A stretch of 64,000 nt of DNA from Halolamina sp. CBA1230. Lineage in GTDB: Archaea > Halobacteriota > Halobacteria > Halobacteriales > Haloferacaceae. The DNA is taken from positions 124,001 through 188,000 of the forward strand of contig NZ_CP054589.1 in assembly GCF_002025255.2 (NCBI RefSeq), written 5' to 3'. The translations under genes and the position numbers were made by a program. Shown here one piece after another: positions 37,343 through 61,341 of this stretch. The notes below the pieces were generated by a model. That model searched no databases, was not told the origin of the DNA, and was given only the letters and a program-made list of their open reading frames with translations. How positions within the stretch are numbered: the stretch's first letter is position 1; each line of letters begins with the position of its first letter.

Positions 37343-37460
37343 CCGGTCGTCGAGTGGCGACGCCGAATATCCCGCCCCGCCGCCGACTCTTGAAAGGTCG
37401 CTCAAAAAGTGGTTTGTGCTTGCAGAAGATACTCGACGCTACCTGCTGAACCCGACGCGT

Positions 37461-38801
37461 ATGGATCGCCGTCGCTATCTCTCCGTCTCGAGCGCCCTCA
37501 TCGCCGGTGCCCTCGCTGGGTGTACAGCACCAGCGACGTCGCACGCCGACATCAGCGCGGATGCGCCGTCGACACCTGCCCTCCAGCCGGACGTCGACGA
37601 CGACACGCTCGATGACCTCGTTACTGGAACGAACACGTTTGCGCTGGACCTGTTCGACGAGCTCCGGACAGCTGATGCCGCCGAGAACCTGCTGGTCTCG
37701 CCGATCAGTGCGACAATTGCGCTGGCGATGACGTACGCTGGTGCCGGCGGGAGCACTCGCGAGCAGATGCGGGAGTCCCTCGGGTACACACTCGACGACG
37801 ACCAGCTCCATGCGGCGTTCAACGACCTCCAGCGAACGCTGTCTGATCGCGACGAGAACATCGACGAGGACGATCTCCCGTCAGACTACGACGACGGCGA
37901 CGAGCCCGTTCCCTTCCAGCTCTCACTCGTCAACGCTATCTGGGGGCAAGCGGGGGTTCCGTTCCGGGACGAGTACCTGACCACGCTCGAGAACCACTAC
38001 GGCGGCGGCCTCAACCAAGTCGACTTCGTTGAGAACCCCGACGGTGTCCGCAAGGCGATCAACGCGTGGATCGCCGACCAGACCGACGACCGAATCGAGG
38101 AGCTGCTTCCAGCGGGATCGGTTTCCTCCCAGACCGTACTCGTCCTGACGAACGCCATCTCCTTCATGGCGAACTGGCGCCACCCGTTCGACGAGGACCG
38201 AACGGAGCCCGCCGAGTTCACCGCACTCGATGGCTCGACGAGCACGGTCCAGATGATGTCACAGGACGTCCAAGTGCCGGCGGCGACCGTCGACGGCGCT
38301 CAGGCCGTCGAACTCCCCTACGTCGGTGGGAGGACGGGTATGCTCATCGTCGTGCCGCCCGCTGGCGAGTTCGAGGCCTACGAACGGGCGTTCGACGCCG
38401 AGCGACTCGGCCGAATCGTCGACGCGCTCGAACCGCAGCGTGGCTACGTCAACCTCCCGCGGTTCGAGTTCGACTCGGAATGCACGCTTGAGCAATCCCT
38501 AGAGGCGCTGGGCATGACCGATGCGTTCGACCCGAATGCGGCGGAGTTCTCGCGGATGGCCGATCTCTCAGAGACTGGCGGCAACCTCTTCGTCGACCAA
38601 GTGTACCACGACACGTACGTCGCCGTCGACGAGCAGGGCACCGAAGCCGCGGCGGCGACGGGATCGGTAGTGAATTTCGTGTCGCGTCCACCGACGGTAC
38701 TCGACGCCAATCGGCCGTTCCTCTTCGTGATCCGCGACCGGCCAACCGGGACGGTGCTTTTCACGGGGCATGTTGTCGACGCCAGCGCGGCACAGGAGTA
38801 G
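37461..38801 (+). CDS. Serpin, Tat-type lipoprotein, copy 1
   Basis: 446 residues from ATG 37461, chosen because it begins the signal MDRRRYLSVSSALIAGALAG with the lipobox Cys next. A linker follows, then a full serpin domain (about 60-440). The hinge before the reactive loop reads VDEQGTEAAAATG (about 389-401), with Gly/Thr/Glu and small residues as in inhibitory serpins. The late serpin signature is NRPFLFVIRDRPTGTVLFTG. It should trap serine or cysteine proteases at the cell surface. The P1 region lies within SVVNFVSRPP. Copy 2 is at 58140. Confidence 0.92.
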   Translation: MDRRRYLSVSSALIAGALAGCTAPATSHADISADAPSTPALQPDVDDDTLDDLVTGTNTFALDLFDELRTADAAENLLVSPISATIALAMTYAGAGGSTREQMRESLGYTLDDDQLHAAFNDLQRTLSDRDENIDEDDLPSDYDDGDEPVPFQLSLVNAIWGQAGVPFRDEYLTTLENHYGGGLNQVDFVENPDGVRKAINAWIADQTDDRIEELLPAGSVSSQTVLVLTNAISFMANWRHPFDEDRTEPAEFTALDGSTSTVQMMSQDVQVPAATVDGAQAVELPYVGGRTGMLIVVPPAGEFEAYERAFDAERLGRIVDALEPQRGYVNLPRFEFDSECTLEQSLEALGMTDAFDPNAAEFSRMADLSETGGNLFVDQVYHDTYVAVDEQGTEAAAATGSVVNFVSRPPTVLDANRPFLFVIRDRPTGTVLFTGHVVDASAAQE

Positions 38802-39854
38802 GAGATTCATTGACGGTACTGAGGCGTGCTGAAACGCGGGTGGAGACAGGACAGCAGCGACGGTTCGCCGCCATGTGACCGCGTGAGACGCCATCTCGCT
38901 ACCCTCGTTCGCTCCGCTCACGATACGCCGCTGCCGCCTGCCGCGTCGCTCGCGATCGGCGTGTGGGATCCGAATCGTGCGATTGTGCCGCGAAGACTTC
39001 CAGTCCATCCTGACGCAGCTGGATCGATTTCTCGGTGTGTGAGTCACGTCCGTTTGGGGGAGCCTCCTCGGGTTGCGCGCGCTCCGGCCGACAGGGACCG
39101 GTCCTGCCGGGCCCGGGCTTTCGCGCTGCCGTTGCGTCTGCGACGGACGGGGCACGGTCACGGGACCGGGTCGGGCCGGGTGCAGTCGCCCGATACCGGT
39201 CGCACCCGACAGCGGGCCTGCGAGCGCTCGGCCCGCGACCGGGATTGACCGGAACCGGACCGACTGCATCTGCACCGGCCGTTGCGTCGGCGCGCCCCCA
39301 CCACGGTCGCGCCGACGAACGGCGGTGCAGACGTGGCCGCCTGTGCGGTCCGGGACGGGCTGCTCGCCGCTCGGGCTGTCGCCCTCGTCCCGATTTACCG
39401 CCGGGCTGCCGCGGCTACCGGGGTTCGCCGTGCTCACCCCGGTATGCCCCGGGTCCGGGCGTTCCTCGGGCATGGCTGCGCTGCCGGCCGGGCATCCGCT
39501 CGAACTCGGTCGCGACGGGGTGGGCTGCCGCGGGCGTGCCGTCCGCGGCCGGCGTGCCGCGCGAGGCGTTTCCGTTGCGTCTGCGACGGACGGGACAGGC
39601 TCGCGCGGGACCGGCCCCGCACGGGGCCGGCGGGGCCCACCCCTCTGCGTCCCTCGCTGTGGCCGTATCCGGGGCCGTTCACCACCGTATACCCCCCGGC
39701 CGTGCCGCCTCGGCGCCGCGACCGCTGCCGTTGCGTCTCACGACGGACGGGTGTCGGCGCGGCGCCGACCCGCGGTGACCGGCTGGGTATACGGCGGTGA
39801 TCGCGCGCTCACCTCGAGCTGCTCCCCCGCACTTGGGTGGCAGGGGATGTCGTC
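38802..39854. other. GC-rich non-coding region with repeated stem-loops
   Basis: Open frames here are Arg/Pro/Gly-rich and not protein-like. Four hairpin units start CCGTTGCGTC: 39129-39150, 39279-39322, 39572-39593 and 39728-39750. The second has a perfect 10-bp stem (CGTCGGCGCG/CGCGCCGACG). The fourth lies inside a perfect stem CGGCGCCGCG (39711-39720)/CGCGGCGCCG (39758-39767), itself inside a 22-base imperfect pair at 39678-39699 and 39779-39800. It may be a structured RNA, a replication/transfer origin, or both. Confidence 0.5.
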
Positions 39855-40030
39855 GGCGCCGCGCCGCGCCGGACGGCGTCCGGCGTGAAGGCGCGGCGCG
39901 GGCGCCTCGGTGCCGGCAGCCGTCGACAGCGGGTCGATGGCGGCGTCGCTGGTGAGTGTCGGTCCGTGAGAAACCCGCGATATGGGTCGCGGGTGGCGGC
40001 GCGTCAGCGCCTTCGGAGTTAGTGAACTCC
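39855..40030 (+). ncRNA. Structured leader of the OB-fold gene, copy 1
   Basis: Four hairpins in order precede the ATG at 40031. H1: CGCGCCGCGCC (39860-39870)/GGCGCGGCGCG (39890-39900), extendable by five pairs past one bulged base. H2: ACCCGCGA (39973-39980)/TCGCGGGT (39987-39994). H3: GGCGC (39998-40002)/GCGCC (40007-40011). H4: GGAGTT (40015-40020)/AACTCC (40025-40030), touching the start codon. Copy 2 (60007-60156) keeps the same order with different stem sequences for H1, H2 and H4. This suggests a working RNA leader that could control translation. Confidence 0.55.
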
Positions 40031-40930
40031 ATGTCCAGTAACAACGCGAGCGGAAAGGTCGTTTCGGTGGATGAACAGGCATTCGAGAACGCGGACGAGC
40101 AGGCAGTCGATGCAGACGGCGTCCCGGTCGTCGACGAGACGACGACGTTCGAAGCGACGGTCGAGCAGGAGACGCAGGCGAAGGTGGATGCGAATCACCC
40201 GGAGGGGATCGCGGACACGAACACCGAGCGGATTCACGGTGTCACCCTCGAACAGGAGGAGCGCATTCGGGCCCGGGAAGCCGAACTGGAGCGCATCAGT
40301 GCCCAAGCCGAGCTGGGCACGCAGGACGGGCGGGCGCAGCGCACGCGGGCGGTCGCCGCTGAAGGGAGCACGGAACGCCGGCGGGAGTTCCAGCAGCGGG
40401 CGGCGAGCGTGAACCCGATGGCCGACCCCGAACGGGATGATCCCCGAGCGGCGCTCTCCCAGGATGAACTGGCGACGGTAAACACGGAGGCAGATCGACT
40501 CGCGACGCGGCTGGATGGCTGGTCGCGGGCGGCGATCAGTCGACGGCTGGCCGAAGCGATCGTCGACGGCCGAGACCTGACGAGTGCGGTCGTCCGGGTG
40601 TTCGAGGAGCTGCAGACGGCGCCCACGGGCTCGGTGCCCATCGACGCGCTCGAGGACGTCGATCGCGGCACGGTCACGATCGAGGGCCGTGTGAAAACCC
40701 TCTGGGACAGTGATTCGCCGGCCATCCAACAAGTCGGGCTAATCGCGGACGAGAGCGGGCAAACGAAGGTGACGATCTGGAAGGCATCGGACGCCCCGTG
40801 GATCGAGGAAGGCGAGCGGGTGCGCATTCACGAAGCGGCCACGAACTGGTACGAGGGCCGGATCTCGGTGGCCGTGACGGGGTGGAGCAGTATTCACTTC
40901 CCGGAGCGCGGCCGCTGGTGGGACGCATAG
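40031..40930 (+). CDS. OB-fold single-stranded-DNA-binding-like protein, copy 1
   Basis: 299 residues. The N-terminal half is charged and helical, with a long coiled-coil-like run (EERIRAREAELERISAQAEL). The C-terminal about 95 residues form an OB fold of the RPA/SSB kind: VTIEGRVKTLWDSDSPAIQQ, VGLIADESGQTKVTIWKASD, RVRIHEAATNWYEGRISVAV, ending HFPERGRWWDA. It probably binds single-stranded DNA or RNA. The structured leader before the gene raises the possibility that it binds its own mRNA. Copy 2 is at 60158. Confidence 0.75.
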   Translation: MSSNNASGKVVSVDEQAFENADEQAVDADGVPVVDETTTFEATVEQETQAKVDANHPEGIADTNTERIHGVTLEQEERIRAREAELERISAQAELGTQDGRAQRTRAVAAEGSTERRREFQQRAASVNPMADPERDDPRAALSQDELATVNTEADRLATRLDGWSRAAISRRLAEAIVDGRDLTSAVVRVFEELQTAPTGSVPIDALEDVDRGTVTIEGRVKTLWDSDSPAIQQVGLIADESGQTKVTIWKASDAPWIEEGERVRIHEAATNWYEGRISVAVTGWSSIHFPERGRWWDA

Positions 40931-41249
40931 CCAGTCGGCGTACCCCTCTTTTTTGCTGTGTGCCGAACCGACCCAAGCCCCGCCGCCCCACCCTCCGCTC
41001 CGTGCTCGCTCCGTGAGACTCGCTGTTGCTCGTCTCACGTGCCCTCGTTCGCAGTGCTCACGAGGACTTCGCTGCGCGCGCAGCCACGACCTCGAGATTC
41101 GGTCTGATATTTATCCCAGAAACCGGGGGAAGGGTACCCGACCGGGCGTGTTTGTCCCACCGCACGAGCGGTGCGGGCGTGCCCACGCTCAGAGCTACGC
41201 ATGAAAGTAGAAGGGGAGTGACGGCTATCAGTCAGGCATCATTCGTAAA
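40931..41249. other. Non-coding stretch after the OB-fold gene, copy 1, with hairpins
   Basis: It starts with CTCTTTTTTTGCTG, then a GC-rich tract. Hairpin 1: CGTGAGAC (41012-41019)/GTCTCACG (41032-41039), perfect. Hairpin 2: GCCCTCGT (41041-41048)/ACGAGGAC (41060-41067), one mismatch. The same series returns at 61060-61330, and its first part again at the right edge (from about 63955). In copy 2 it leads into a TFB gene; here the similarity stops at about 41165 and the QatC-like operon follows. Confidence 0.5.
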
Positions 41250-42716
41250 CTAACATAAGTTGGAGAGCTCTTCGTCCTCTAACGAAAGAAACTCTGTGAC
41301 GTAGTTTTCTAGTGTTGGGTTTTCAGCTGCGAAGAATTCCACGGTTTGGAAAATCTCTCTACTAAATCGTTCATAGAGCCGTAATATATCGGGGTCGAGA
41401 AGCTCGGGGGTAGATGACACCAGCTCCCTTTGGGTCAAAGTCTGAATACGGTACGCGAACGAGAGATGAGCATTCAAGCCTAACAAAAACACTGACAAAC
41501 TAGACTGTCGACTCTGGTTGGGTTGAGCAATATTCTCAGCACTCACTTTCGAGAAGTCGAAGTCCAAGAAATGGTTCTTGTCTAACACCAATTCGTCTGG
41601 CTGTATTTTGTGTTCGCTGTTTACAAGACCAATAATACGGATAAGACAAGGAATACACTCACCACAGTTGTAAGGGTGGCCGGCAGCGTCCTTTCCTTGT
41701 GACAATTCACGCGGATGCGGACATGTTCGAGTGAAGAAGATATCCGCCTTGTTTGGGATACAGTCGACAACCTCCTTCTTCGTATAATCAAGGAACGGAT
41801 TACTGATTTCCAGCTTACGGTCCGGGAATAGATCGTCAAAAATGCGATTCAAGCTCTTTACGAATAGCGGGTGAACTGTGCGAGTCGTCGTCCAGCCAGA
41901 TTCCAGCGATGAGAACCGCGATAGAACGCCATTCTCAGGAACGTAGATATCATCAACATCGAGGGCCACCGCGACAGCGGCGGCGAAAGCGAAGTACATG
42001 AACGAACGAGTGAACTGTGTATCCTCATATGCATAGAATTCTTCGTCGACACCTATTGCGGTCAGATCACCATCAAAGAGATGGTCAAAATTTCGCACTA
42101 GATGACCGACGTTTCGACCATGATCCACACTGACAAAGTGTGGATTGTACCCGTCCTCAGCGAGGTGAAATCGGCCACCCAAACTATCTAACCCACCAGA
42201 AAAAAGGGCGACAGAATCAGCCTCAGGCACTTGATCACGATATCCATCAGTACCATCGTCAATAGACTGGTTTTCGTCAATCGCATCGATGAACCGATAC
42301 TGGAAATTATCACGCGAGATGAAGCTAATAGCGTGATTCAATTCAGACTCTATTGGTCGCCATTTCTCCACGTTAGCAACAGGGTGCAAAATCTGTATCT
42401 GCCGTGATTTCAGCATTTCCTCTCCATCATCCTTCGCGCCAGTAGGCCCCCGCTTCACCAAACGATCTGCAGCATATGTACCGAGTGCGAGCTCCACCAA
42501 TGCCGTGACTGTTGGAGGGGGGCTCTGTCCGAACAGGTCGTTTAGAACCTCCTTCGTGTACTTGGTTAGACGACCGTCCTCCGTTTCAGTCTCGGTGCGA
42601 TAATCGTCAACGACGATTGTATAATCTGAGTCAGCTTCGCTAAGATTTGATCCAGTCCCGGACTTGATCAAGAATCGCTTAGTTCCCTTCAAAGTCCTCG
42701 TCCTCCCATGCTTCAA
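41250..42716 (-). CDS. QueC-like protein of the QatC kind
   Basis: 488 residues. Residues about 70-165 match the N-terminal region I associate with QatC (VELALGTYAADRLVKRG, then a HPVAN ... W block). The PP-loop ATPase core has VALFSGGLDSLGG (SGGLDS at 173-178), VPENGVLSRF, and four zinc cysteines: C332, then CGECIPC (351, 354, 357). QueC makes the deazaguanine preQ0; QueC-like proteins in defence operons (Qat, type IV CBASS) act on other substrates. It ends a three-gene operon with 38-base and 32-base overlaps. No other queuosine genes are nearby. Confidence 0.8.
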   Translation of the reverse strand: MKHGRTRTLKGTKRFLIKSGTGSNLSEADSDYTIVVDDYRTETETEDGRLTKYTKEVLNDLFGQSPPPTVTALVELALGTYAADRLVKRGPTGAKDDGEEMLKSRQIQILHPVANVEKWRPIESELNHAISFISRDNFQYRFIDAIDENQSIDDGTDGYRDQVPEADSVALFSGGLDSLGGRFHLAEDGYNPHFVSVDHGRNVGHLVRNFDHLFDGDLTAIGVDEEFYAYEDTQFTRSFMYFAFAAAVAVALDVDDIYVPENGVLSRFSSLESGWTTTRTVHPLFVKSLNRIFDDLFPDRKLEISNPFLDYTKKEVVDCIPNKADIFFTRTCPHPRELSQGKDAAGHPYNCGECIPCLIRIIGLVNSEHKIQPDELVLDKNHFLDFDFSKVSAENIAQPNQSRQSSLSVFLLGLNAHLSFAYRIQTLTQRELVSSTPELLDPDILRLYERFSREIFQTVEFFAAENPTLENYVTEFLSLEDEELSNLC

Positions 42717-58139: not shown

Positions 58140-59480
58140 ATGGATCGCCGTCAATATCTCTCCGTCTCAAGCGCCCTCATCGCCGGTGCCCTCGCGGGTT
58201 GTACAGCACCAGCGACGTCGCAAGCAGACCTCAGCGCGAGCACACCGTCGACGCCTGCCCTCCAGCCGGATGTCGAGGACGCCACCCTCGATGAGTTGGT
58301 TACTGGAACAAACGCGTTCGCGTTGAACCTGTTCGACGAACTTCGGACAGCTGATGACGCCGAGAACCTGATGGTCTCGCCGATCAGTGCCACAGTTGCG
58401 CTGGCGATGACGTACGCTGGTGCCGGCGGAACCACTCGCGAGCAGATGCGGGAGTCCCTCGGCTACACACTCGACGACGAACAGCTCCATGCGGCGTTCA
58501 ACGAACTCCAGCGAACGCTGTCTGATCGCGGTAAGAACCTCGAGGAGGACGATATCCCGTCAGACTACGACGAAGCCGACGATCCCGTTCCCTTCCAGCT
58601 CTCACTCGTCAACGCCATCTGGGGCCAAGAGGGATTTCCGTTCCGGGACGAATACCTGACCACGCTCGAGAACCACTACGGCGGCGGCCTCAACCAGGTC
58701 GACTTCGTTGAGAACCCGGACGGTGTCCGCGAGGCGATCAACGCGTGGATCGCCGATCAGACCGACAATCGGATCGAGGAGCTGCTTCCAGCGGGATCGA
58801 TCACGTCCCAGACCGTGCTCGTCCTGACGAACGCCATCTACTTCATGGCGAACTGGCGCCACCCGTTCGACGAGGACCAAACTGAGCCGGCTAACTTCAC
58901 CGCGCTCGATGGCTCGACGAGCACGGTCCAGATGATGTCCCAAGACGTCCAGGTCCCGGCGGCGACCATCGACGGCGCCCAGGCCGTCGAACTACCGTAC
59001 GTCGGCGGGACGACGGGAATGCTCATCGTCGTCCCACCCGCTGGGGAGTTCGAAGCCTACGAACGAACATTCGACATCGAGCGACTCGGTCGGATCGTCG
59101 ACGCGCTCGAACCGCAGCGTGGCTACGTCAACCTCCCGCGGTTCGAGTTCAATTCGGAGTGTAAGCTTGAGAGATCTCTGGAGGCGATGGGCATGCCCGA
59201 CGCGTTCGACCCGGATGCGGCGGACTTCTCGCGAATGGCCGATCTGTCGGAGACCGGTGGCAACCTCTTCGTCGACCAAGTGTACCACGACACTTCCGTC
59301 AGCGTTGACGAGCAGGGGACCGAAGCCGCAGCGGCGACGGGATCGGTGATAAATCTCGTGTCGCGTCCGCCGACGGTACTCGACGCAAACCGTCCGTTCC
59401 TCTTCGTGATTCGGGACCGATCAACCGGGACGGTGCTTTTCACGGGGCATGTTGTCGACGCCAGCGCTGCACAGGAGTAG
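58140..59480 (+). CDS. Serpin, Tat-type lipoprotein, copy 2
   Basis: 446 residues from ATG 58140 (signal MDRRQYLSVSSALIAGALAG, then Cys). A longer frame begins upstream at 58032, but the Tat signal marks the true start. The hinge VDEQGTEAAAATG is kept, while the loop after it differs slightly (SVINLVSRPP against SVVNFVSRPP in copy 1). Changes in the reactive loop alter which protease is trapped, so the two serpins may have different targets. Confidence 0.92.
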   Translation: MDRRQYLSVSSALIAGALAGCTAPATSQADLSASTPSTPALQPDVEDATLDELVTGTNAFALNLFDELRTADDAENLMVSPISATVALAMTYAGAGGTTREQMRESLGYTLDDEQLHAAFNELQRTLSDRGKNLEEDDIPSDYDEADDPVPFQLSLVNAIWGQEGFPFRDEYLTTLENHYGGGLNQVDFVENPDGVREAINAWIADQTDNRIEELLPAGSITSQTVLVLTNAIYFMANWRHPFDEDQTEPANFTALDGSTSTVQMMSQDVQVPAATIDGAQAVELPYVGGTTGMLIVVPPAGEFEAYERTFDIERLGRIVDALEPQRGYVNLPRFEFNSECKLERSLEAMGMPDAFDPDAADFSRMADLSETGGNLFVDQVYHDTSVSVDEQGTEAAAATGSVINLVSRPPTVLDANRPFLFVIRDRSTGTVLFTGHVVDASAAQE

Positions 59481-60006
59481 GAAATTCTTGGGCGGTACCA
59501 AGACCAGCTGAAACGCAGGTCGGGAAGTAGAAAGCCCTCGGCCGCTCGACGTCCCGCGACCGCGCGAGACTACGTCTCGCTGGCTCTCGTTCGCTGCGCT
59601 CACGAGAACGCCGCTGTGCGCCTCGTGCCTGCGGTGCTTGCGGGGTCGGGGGGCGACCGAGGCGGCCGCGCCCTTTCTGAGTCCGCCAGGACGGTAGATG
59701 GCTCACCGAGCGACGTAGCCGGCTGGGCAGGTGTGTCCGTACCGGCCCGCCCCGCTCGCCGCTGCCGCCCTCCGCGTCGCTCGCGACCGACCATTCCGGG
59801 CGTGCGGGCGCTTTCCGCACCGCCCGCGCCCGTTCCGGGCTAAAATGGATGTGCCCTCGACGCCAGCGCTTCACCCGTTCGGGTCCTCCGGACCTCGGCA
59901 AAGCCGACCGCGACGGACGTGGTTGCGTCGCGGCGAACGGGGAATGCGCTGGCCGCTCGCTCCGGGCGGGTCGGCGCGCGGTGCTGGTTGGGGCCACCTC
60001 ATGCAG
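59481..60006. other. GC-rich non-coding region, copy 2
   Basis: The counterpart of 38802-39854, but shorter (526 bases). It has the common haloarchaeal GAGACTACGTCTC and CTCTCGTTCGCTGCGCTCAC type hairpins near 59570-59610. It lacks the four CCGTTGCGTC hairpins of copy 1. No coding frame is convincing. Confidence 0.4.
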
Positions 60007-60157
60007 GCGCGCTCTCGCTCGCGCCCGGGAGGGCGCTCGCGAAGGCGCGAGCGAGAGCGCGCAGATGGGTCTGTCGGTCGGTGTCGTCTGAAAACCGCGA
60101 TGTAGCAGCATCGCGGTGTCGGGCGCTGAGCGCCTTCAACGGTACAAGTGAGTACCA
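60007..60157 (+). ncRNA. Structured leader of the OB-fold gene, copy 2
   Basis: H1: a perfect 19-bp stem, 60007-60025 with 60044-60062. H2: ACCGCGATG (60094-60102)/CATCGCGGT (60109-60117). H3: GGCGC (60122-60126)/GCGCC (60130-60134). H4: GGTAC (60141-60145)/GTACC (60152-60156), one base before the ATG at 60158. The order and spacing match copy 1, but the bases of H1, H2 and H4 differ on both sides of each stem. Confidence 0.55.
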
Positions 60158-61057
60158 ATGTCTAGTAACAACTCGAGTCAGAAGGTCGTTACGGTCGATG
60201 AACAGGCATTCGAAAAAGCGGGCGGTCAGGCGGTCGATGAGGACGGCTTCCCGGTCGTCGACGAGACGCCGGAGTTCGAGGCCGCGGTCGAGCAGGAGAC
60301 GCAGGCGAAGGTGGATGCGAACCACCCGGACGGGATCGCGGACACGAGCGAAGATCGGATTCACGGTGTCACCCTCGAACAGGAGGAGCGCATTCGGGCG
60401 CGGGAAGCCGAACTGGAGCGTATCAGTGCCCAAGCCGAACTCGGGACGCAGGATGGTCGTGAGCAACGCACGCGTGAGGTCGCCGCTGAAGGGAGCAAGC
60501 AGCGCCGGCGGGAGTTCCAGAAGCGGGCCGCGAGCGTGGACCCGATGGCCGACCCCGAACGGAATGATCCCCGAGCGGCACTCTCCCAGGATGAACTGGC
60601 GACGGTGAACACGGAAGCGGACCGACTCGCGACGCGGGTGGATGGCTGGTCGCGTGCGGCGATCAGTCGACGCCTGGCCGAAGCGGTCGTCGACGGCACG
60701 GACATGACGAGTGCGGTCGTGCGGGTGTTCGAGGAGTTGCAGACGGCCCCAGGGGGCACCGTGCCCATCGACGCTCTCGAGGATGTCGATCGCGGTACCG
60801 TCACGATCGAAGGCCGTGTGAAGACCCTCTGGGACAGTGATTCACCGGCCATCCAGCAAGTCGGGCTGATCGCGGACGAGAGCGGGCAAACGAAGGTGAC
60901 GATCTGGAAGGCATCGGACGCGCCGTGGATCGAGGAAGGCGAGACGGTGCGCATCCACGAAGCGGCCACGAACTGGTACGAGGGCCGGATCTCGGTGGCC
61001 GTGACGGGGTGGAGCATCATCCACTTCCCGGAGCGCGGCCGGTGGTGGGAAGCATAG
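60158..61057 (+). CDS. OB-fold single-stranded-DNA-binding-like protein, copy 2
   Basis: 299 residues, nearly identical to the protein at 40031 in the OB-fold part (VTIEGRVKTLWDSDSPAIQQ to HFPERGRWWEA). It differs more in the first 70 residues. The coiled-coil-like middle is kept. This copy is followed by the conserved non-coding tract and an intact TFB gene. Confidence 0.75.
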   Translation: MSSNNSSQKVVTVDEQAFEKAGGQAVDEDGFPVVDETPEFEAAVEQETQAKVDANHPDGIADTSEDRIHGVTLEQEERIRAREAELERISAQAELGTQDGREQRTREVAAEGSKQRRREFQKRAASVDPMADPERNDPRAALSQDELATVNTEADRLATRVDGWSRAAISRRLAEAVVDGTDMTSAVVRVFEELQTAPGGTVPIDALEDVDRGTVTIEGRVKTLWDSDSPAIQQVGLIADESGQTKVTIWKASDAPWIEEGETVRIHEAATNWYEGRISVAVTGWSIIHFPERGRWWEA

Positions 61058-61341
61058 CCAGTCGGAGCTGTCTTCTTTTTTTTTGCTGTGTGCCGGACCG
61101 ACCCAGACCCCACCGCCCCACCCTCCGCTCCGTGCTCGCTCCGTGAGACTCGCTATTGCTCGTCTCACGTGCCCTCGTTCGCGGTGCTCACGAGGGCTCC
61201 GCTGCGCGCGCAGCCACGACCTCGAGATCGGGTCTGAGATTTATCCCTCAAACCGCGGGAAGGGGTGCGCGACCAGGTTTGTTTCCCCCACGAGGGGTGC
61301 GGGGCGCGCCGAACTGGCGTACCCTCAATCAGGTGAGACCG
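61058..61341. other. Non-coding stretch after the OB-fold gene, copy 2, with hairpins
   Basis: It starts with a long T run (61074-61083), perhaps a terminator. Hairpin 1: CGTGAGAC (61142-61149)/GTCTCACG (61162-61169). Hairpin 2: GCCCTCGT (61171-61178)/ACGAGGGC (61190-61197). Both are perfect. The tract leads into the TFB gene at 61342. Such hairpins are common in haloarchaeal spacers. Confidence 0.45.

Follow-up and report, generated by a model that had tools for sequence, protein, structure and literature searches.

Salt-loving archaea keep, in hundreds of copies, a conserved and covarying structured element that ends at the start codon of genes for two unrelated kinds of DNA-binding protein. 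What is new here is a large structure, most likely an RNA, that is tied both to a start codon and to genes exchanged behind it. In the window, the whole 64,000-nucleotide stretch of Halolamina sp. CBA1230 that was analysed (contig NZ_CP054589.1, positions 124,001 to 188,000), two copies lie ahead of two OB-fold genes (Table 1). The initial annotation had described four stems in the same order before both genes; these stems, P_A to P_D, are present where they had been placed in copy 1, in which RNAfold forms all four, and have counterparts in copy 2. They represent only the 3' end of a larger folded element. Thus, the span first given for the leader, 39855-40030, does hold the stems of copy 1, but the leader measures 600-950 nt, runs into the coding sequence, and has a conserved 3' region as well. 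Likewise, the last stem touches the start codon in copy 1, but a single A lies between P_D and the ATG in copy 2.

Table 1. Positions of the element, its stems, and the associated genes in the window, numbered from the first nucleotide of the window
Feature	Position	Strand	Remarks
Type II structured element, 5' of OB-fold gene copy 1	39048..40030	+	
P_A copy 1, long GC stem	39855-39870/39890-39906 (span 39855..39906)	+	Inner hairpin 39871-39881
GAAGGCGC strand within P_A copy 1	39887..39894	+	Complementary to GCGCCTTC at 40007-40014
P_B copy 1	ACCCGCGA 39973-39980 / TCGCGGGT 39987-39994	+	
P_C copy 1	GGCGC 39998-40002 / GCGCC 40007-40011	+	GCGCC common to the possible long-range pairing
P_D copy 1	GGAGTT 40015-40020 / AACTCC 40025-40030	+	ATG at 40031
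OB-fold gene copy 1	40031..40930	+	Rfa5/Rfa6 family, 299 aa
Conserved 3' region copy 1	40931..41092	+	T-run, C-rich linker, hairpin, end ...GCGCGCAGCCACGACCT
Type I structured element, 5' of OB-fold gene copy 2	59530..60157	+	
5' domain copy 2, GAAAG...CTTTC	59530..59677	+	Sharp 5' boundary
Conserved core copy 2, CGACCGACCATTCCGGGC-hairpin-GTTCCGGGCTAAAATGGATGTG	59784..59853	+	Consensus of 105 type I members
P3 closing stem copy 2, GCCAGCGCTTCACCCGTTCG / CGAACGGGGAATGCGCTGGC	59862..59953	+	With insert
P_A copy 2	60007-60025/60044-60062	+	GAAGGCGC at 60041-60048
P_B copy 2	CCGCGATG 60095-60102 / CATCGCGG 60109-60116	+	
P_C copy 2, GGCGC/GCGCC	within 60121-60134	+	GCGCCTTC at 60130-60137
P_D copy 2, GGTAC/GTACC	60141-60156	+	ATG at 60158
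OB-fold gene copy 2	60158..61057	+	90% identical to copy 1
Conserved 3' region copy 2	61058..61222	+	

The element exists in two types. Type I, found in most loci including copy 2, begins sharply at GAAAGCCC, measures about 500-650 nt, and consists, in this order, of the conserved core, P3 with exchangeable inserts, P_A, P_B, P_C, and P_D. Type II, comprising copy 1 and about eight relatives, has a different and longer 5' part (about 950 nt; ~950 nt are conserved in 6 loci) and the same 3' layout, with P_A alike in layout and unlike in sequence between the two types. The copy 1 element is also found on two Haloferax plasmids (98% coverage, 82% identity), and the type II consensus fold contains 26 compensatory pairs among 8 members. 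At the 5' boundary, which carries AAAGCCC, the DNA that precedes this motif is unrelated in 59 distinct loci. A shared promoter at this position was rejected, since no TATA-like box 25 nt before the boundary is common to the loci. At the other end, in the gene itself, non-preferred bases are conserved in roughly the first 15 codons. Third-position A/T amounts to 0.50 in the first 13 codons and to 0.26 in later ones, and the positions under constraint in these codons coincide between OB-fold and TFB genes; at the nucleotide level, the element therefore extends beyond the start codon. Past the stop codon and beyond a T-run lies a further conserved region, in three sequence versions, with a sharp 3' boundary at ...GCGCGCAGCCAC[AG]ACCT; it suggests a DNA-level or separate 3' function.

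Changes on one side of a stem had been said to be matched on the other in the two window copies, and the same holds across many homologues. R1, a covariance model built on the 3' domain, has a match in each of the 100 loci searched; these matches end, with few exceptions, at the gene start (in copy 2, 60018-60160 at 149.7 bits). In the alignment of 100 leaders built from the R1 matches, 94.8% of the cells are paired, and both sides change at 21 of the 27 pairs of P_A, P_B, P_C, and P_D. The covariation score (0.249) lies above background, which is 0.088 ± 0.004 for shuffled alignments and at most 0.058 for slid partners. In alignment A4, 6 of the 8 P_B pairs show changes on both sides. Because the 100-leader alignment was fitted to the model and therefore leans towards the structure, alignment-free tests were added; they were applied to P_D and P3, MAFFT alignments having broken the P_D pairs.

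P_D is hypervariable (78 distinct sequences in the first set) yet self-complementary. At the third pair, A-T occurs 41 times and T-A 19 times; the fourth is A-T, G-C, C-G, or T-A. In 72% of cases the arms from one locus form a stem of 5 bp or more, versus 26% when arms are swapped between loci. P3, several hundred bases upstream, falls into 11 unrelated arm classes, each of them self-complementary; own arms reach a mean of -24.5 kcal/mol, compared with -12.5 ± 3.9 for swapped ones, and 0 swaps attain the median of the own arms. The folding z-score against shuffles averages near -4 to -5 over about 540 nt upstream of the gene. With more than 100 loci carrying the structure, a coincidence between two copies was ruled out. 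The claim that selection keeps an RNA structure thus stands as far as the structure goes, on the evidence of covariation, P_D, and P3; that it is kept as RNA rather than DNA is favored, not proven.

By its sequence, the gene behind both window copies is a member of the Rfa5/Rfa6 single-OB-fold SSB family, of which the Halolamina genome has four, two of them within the window. The protein matches PDB 2kbn (E 4e-10) and, below the curated cut-offs, NCBIfam PRK07217 (E 5e-16, residues 207-288) and the Pfam OB fold (E 3e-4). Genes of this type encode about 300 aa with a single C-terminal OB fold and are located mostly on minichromosomes or plasmids (151 plasmid records). In NRC-1, VNG_RS11940 on pNRC200 and VNG_RS12910 on pNRC100, both with the leader, share 241 of 298 residues (81%), and 81% is also the identity published for Halobacterium salinarum Rfa5 and Rfa6 in the passages of PMC5924565 covered here. 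The same passages place Haloferax volcanii HVO_A0019/A0374/A0409 in this family and describe rfa5/rfa6 transcription as low, with modest induction by mitomycin C; within them, a leader is not mentioned.

The element is not confined to OB-fold genes. A fifth RNA copy in the Halolamina genome (G000:C3:47684-47821) lies ahead of a TFB gene 359 codons long, the RNA copy and gene together forming L162:2685-3899 (G000:C3:47684-48898). This gene starts with MSSNNAS, the first seven residues of the OB-fold genes, and it too is followed by the conserved 3' end. Overall, 158 OB-fold and 11 TFB genes, the latter counted by their zinc-ribbon pattern, stand behind the element, ten of the TFB genes in related genomes. 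Among distinct Rfa5/6-type loci gathered across Halobacteria, 116 of 117 have the leader; the exception, L067, has lost the upstream part. In a survey of the family, 35 of 70 genomes contain the RNA, and the genuine matches inspected are all followed by an OB-fold or TFB gene, except for the degraded copy L196 (L215 and L217 being false model matches). In a sample of the phylum, matches were restricted to members of the same order. The leader also occurs on plasmids, in at least 161 records. A phage or virus origin was ruled out, as the OB-fold protein has no relatives in IMG/VR contigs or phage records.

The neighborhood of the element varies. In many loci the downstream genes are variable and partly defense-like (Avs2, SoFic, CARF, methyltransferase, HNH nuclease, DrmE), with TFB in 17 loci and zinc-finger genes in 10; the window itself has a QatC-like gene at 41250-42716 on the - strand (E 1.5e-38). 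Upstream, small genes of about 96 aa and 111 aa, in part HTH and HalOD1, recur in L147, L148, L150, L151, L152, and L153, which represent several plasmids. A serpin-like gene precedes both window copies (37416-38801 and around 58600-59480), indicating that the window holds a diverged segmental duplication. Type I and type II bodies, terminal hairpins, and genes are variously combined when L064, L068, and L095 are compared with L053, L003, and others. The terminal hairpin seemingly moves with the gene, a pattern suggestive of recombination at the element. At the chromosomal locus L127, the RNA body has mostly been replaced by other DNA, with P_B, P_C, P_D, and an intact gene being kept.

We model the element as a large structured RNA that would form the 5' leader and influence translation initiation in cis, a proposal to which we give slightly less than an even chance. 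Such a leader would serve plasmid-borne genes for general nucleic-acid-handling proteins, either an Rfa5/Rfa6 one-OB-fold SSB or TFB. In almost all loci the start codon marks the end of the 3' module. Shine-Dalgarno-like matches of at least 4 nt occur in 79% of distinct P_D segments versus 35% in shuffles, which supports a ribosome-binding region in the last stem; the initial annotation had suggested that this stem could hide or present the start codon. In the proposed mechanism, the loop or 5' arm of P_D would bear the Shine-Dalgarno-like sequence, the hairpin ending at the AUG, and GCGCCTTC may pair either locally, in P_C, or with the invariant and otherwise free GAAGGCGC of P_A. Being mutually exclusive, the two pairings could relay a signal from the RNA body to the start site. 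We infer that the whole would be transcribed as a single leader, in which these pairings would act as a switch that sets translation. GAAGGCGC is almost invariant even where it is unable to pair inside P_A, and RNAalifold picks GAAGGCG:CGCCTTC as the consensus helix, thus preferring the long-range pairing. In L042, L131, and L207, an inner stem occupies the alternative partners, so that GAAGGCGC stays free, and L213 and L216, where the sequence has changed to GTGCCTTC, retain the pairing by way of a G-U. Covariation cannot prove the GAAGGCGC/GCGCCTTC pairing, because both sequences hardly vary.

A cis-acting translation leader does not sit easily with every observation. At 600-950 nt the element is large for such a leader, its 5' boundary has no common TATA-like box, and the conserved region after the terminator-like T-run is not explained by a 5' leader. 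In P_D, A-C mismatches exceed G-U pairs (23 to 2), unlike in a typical RNA helix on the + strand, and L127 has an intact gene despite the loss of most of the RNA body. The size, together with the multi-branch layout and the conserved unpaired core, would suit an RNA of 600-950 nt that acts in trans, processed from or transcribed apart from the mRNA and forming an RNP, in the way that OLE RNA joins its partners, as one unit with the gene. That P3 exchanges whole helices at fixed junctions, that gene and RNA almost never separate, and that OB-fold and TFB genes both encode nucleic-acid-binding proteins also speak for a trans-acting RNA. Nevertheless, we consider it unlikely, given that the most conserved placement is the start codon, that the constraint enters the coding sequence, and that the presence of either an OB-fold or a TFB gene leaves no single protein partner.

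The tests of RNA versus DNA gave mixed results. In 4 of the 6 alignments, the consensus fold is energetically better on the + strand, with roughly double the number of G-U pairs; shuffle-corrected folding is equally strong on the - strand, and G-U and A-C cells are about equally frequent in several helices (25 and 18 in one count, 57 and 41 in P3). The inverted repeats might instead be DNA hairpins or recombination-prone palindromes, with RNA structure as a by-product, or, in variants of the same idea, the SSB-like protein might bind the element, or downstream cargo might be exchanged at it as at the boundary of a cassette. The mostly Watson-Crick stem changes, the similar G-U and A-C counts with A-C favored in P_D, and the - strand z-scores fit a function at the DNA level, as do the sharp boundaries in unrelated DNA at both ends, the conserved region after the T-run, the variable and partly defense-like cargo, and the differing combinations of RNA bodies, terminal hairpins, and genes. 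We nonetheless regard these DNA-level explanations, taken jointly, as rather improbable in view of the nested multi-branch layout with its conserved unpaired sequences, the Shine-Dalgarno-like matches in P_D, and the preference for the + strand in 4 of 6 consensus folds. Target-site duplications give no signal either (12 loci share at least a 5-mer, against about 10.5 in swapped flanks), which ruled out a classical transposon. An RNA is favored over a DNA element.

Feedback by the OB-fold protein, as envisaged in the initial annotation, would make the leader an operator for autogenous repression by the SSB-like product, as in T4 gene 32. In favor of this, the protein is an SSB homologue with a single OB fold, its coding sequence begins A-rich, and, like the T4 operator, the leader may form a pseudoknot 5' of the ribosome-binding site (PMC535899). 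Yet the same element precedes a TFB gene in 11 loci, so OB-fold-specific feedback is unlikely to be the general mechanism. Moreover, the ribosome-binding region has no structure in T4 but is part of a stable hairpin here, and the T4 pseudoknot measures about 28 nt against 600-950 nt here. Autogenous repression of this kind appears very unlikely to us.

The T4 gene 32 operator, in which a pseudoknot precedes an SSB gene's ribosome-binding site, is nevertheless the nearest working analogue of the proposed cis-acting leader (PMC535899). Both have a structured leader and, here as a possibility, a pseudoknot upstream of that site; the element differs in its length, in the placement of the ribosome-binding segment within P_D in most loci, and in serving TFB genes too, whereas the T4 operator belongs to one gene. 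It is thus not a member of that kind. In size and complexity it resembles OLE, ROOL, and GOLLD (PMC12286853), with hundreds of nucleotides, many helices, a conserved core, and variable outer helices, and, as for GOLLD and ROOL, it is tied to mobile replicons. Membership is a different matter: the element belongs to haloarchaea, and it reaches a start codon and places constraint on the first codons of the gene. Broadly, large ornate RNAs are at least 500 nt long, have many covarying helices, and are expressed as RNA; the element has the size and the helices and is a candidate for this group. The alternative pairings beside a sequestered ribosome-binding site in our working model recall ribosomal-protein leaders and riboswitches, from which the element differs by its much larger size and by matching no Rfam family. 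An omega RNA of IS200/IS605 was ruled out, as the adjacent gene encodes an OB-fold protein or TFB and not TnpB/IscB; TnpB is only an occasional neighbor. In the window, no Rfam family matched at the gathering threshold, and a search of 38950-40060 gave a best E of 0.43, which is at chance level; with no covariance-model match, OLE, ROOL, GOLLD, and other Rfam families were ruled out. Nor did the open-licence literature yield a description of the element, in agreement with the initial view that no such haloarchaeal leader has been described, although it may have been described elsewhere.

Most known large structured RNAs come from bacteria and phages. Tentatively, and with a probability well below even, the element may represent a new class of large ornate RNA, so far confined to haloarchaea, and be the conserved functional entity of a plasmid module: an RNP or regulatory platform with interchangeable SSB-like Rfa5/6 or TFB frames behind it, beside variable and partly anti-phage cargo. 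Many haloarchaea have it, among them the model organism Halobacterium salinarum, and it was apparently overlooked because it is located in intergenic DNA annotated as empty. Its function can be tested in organisms with working genetics, for which rfa5/rfa6 deletion strains exist according to the passages of PMC5924565 covered here. The element connects one RNA with genes of two unrelated kinds, for an SSB homologue and for an archaeal TFB, and marks plasmid loci with variable, partly defense-like cargo.
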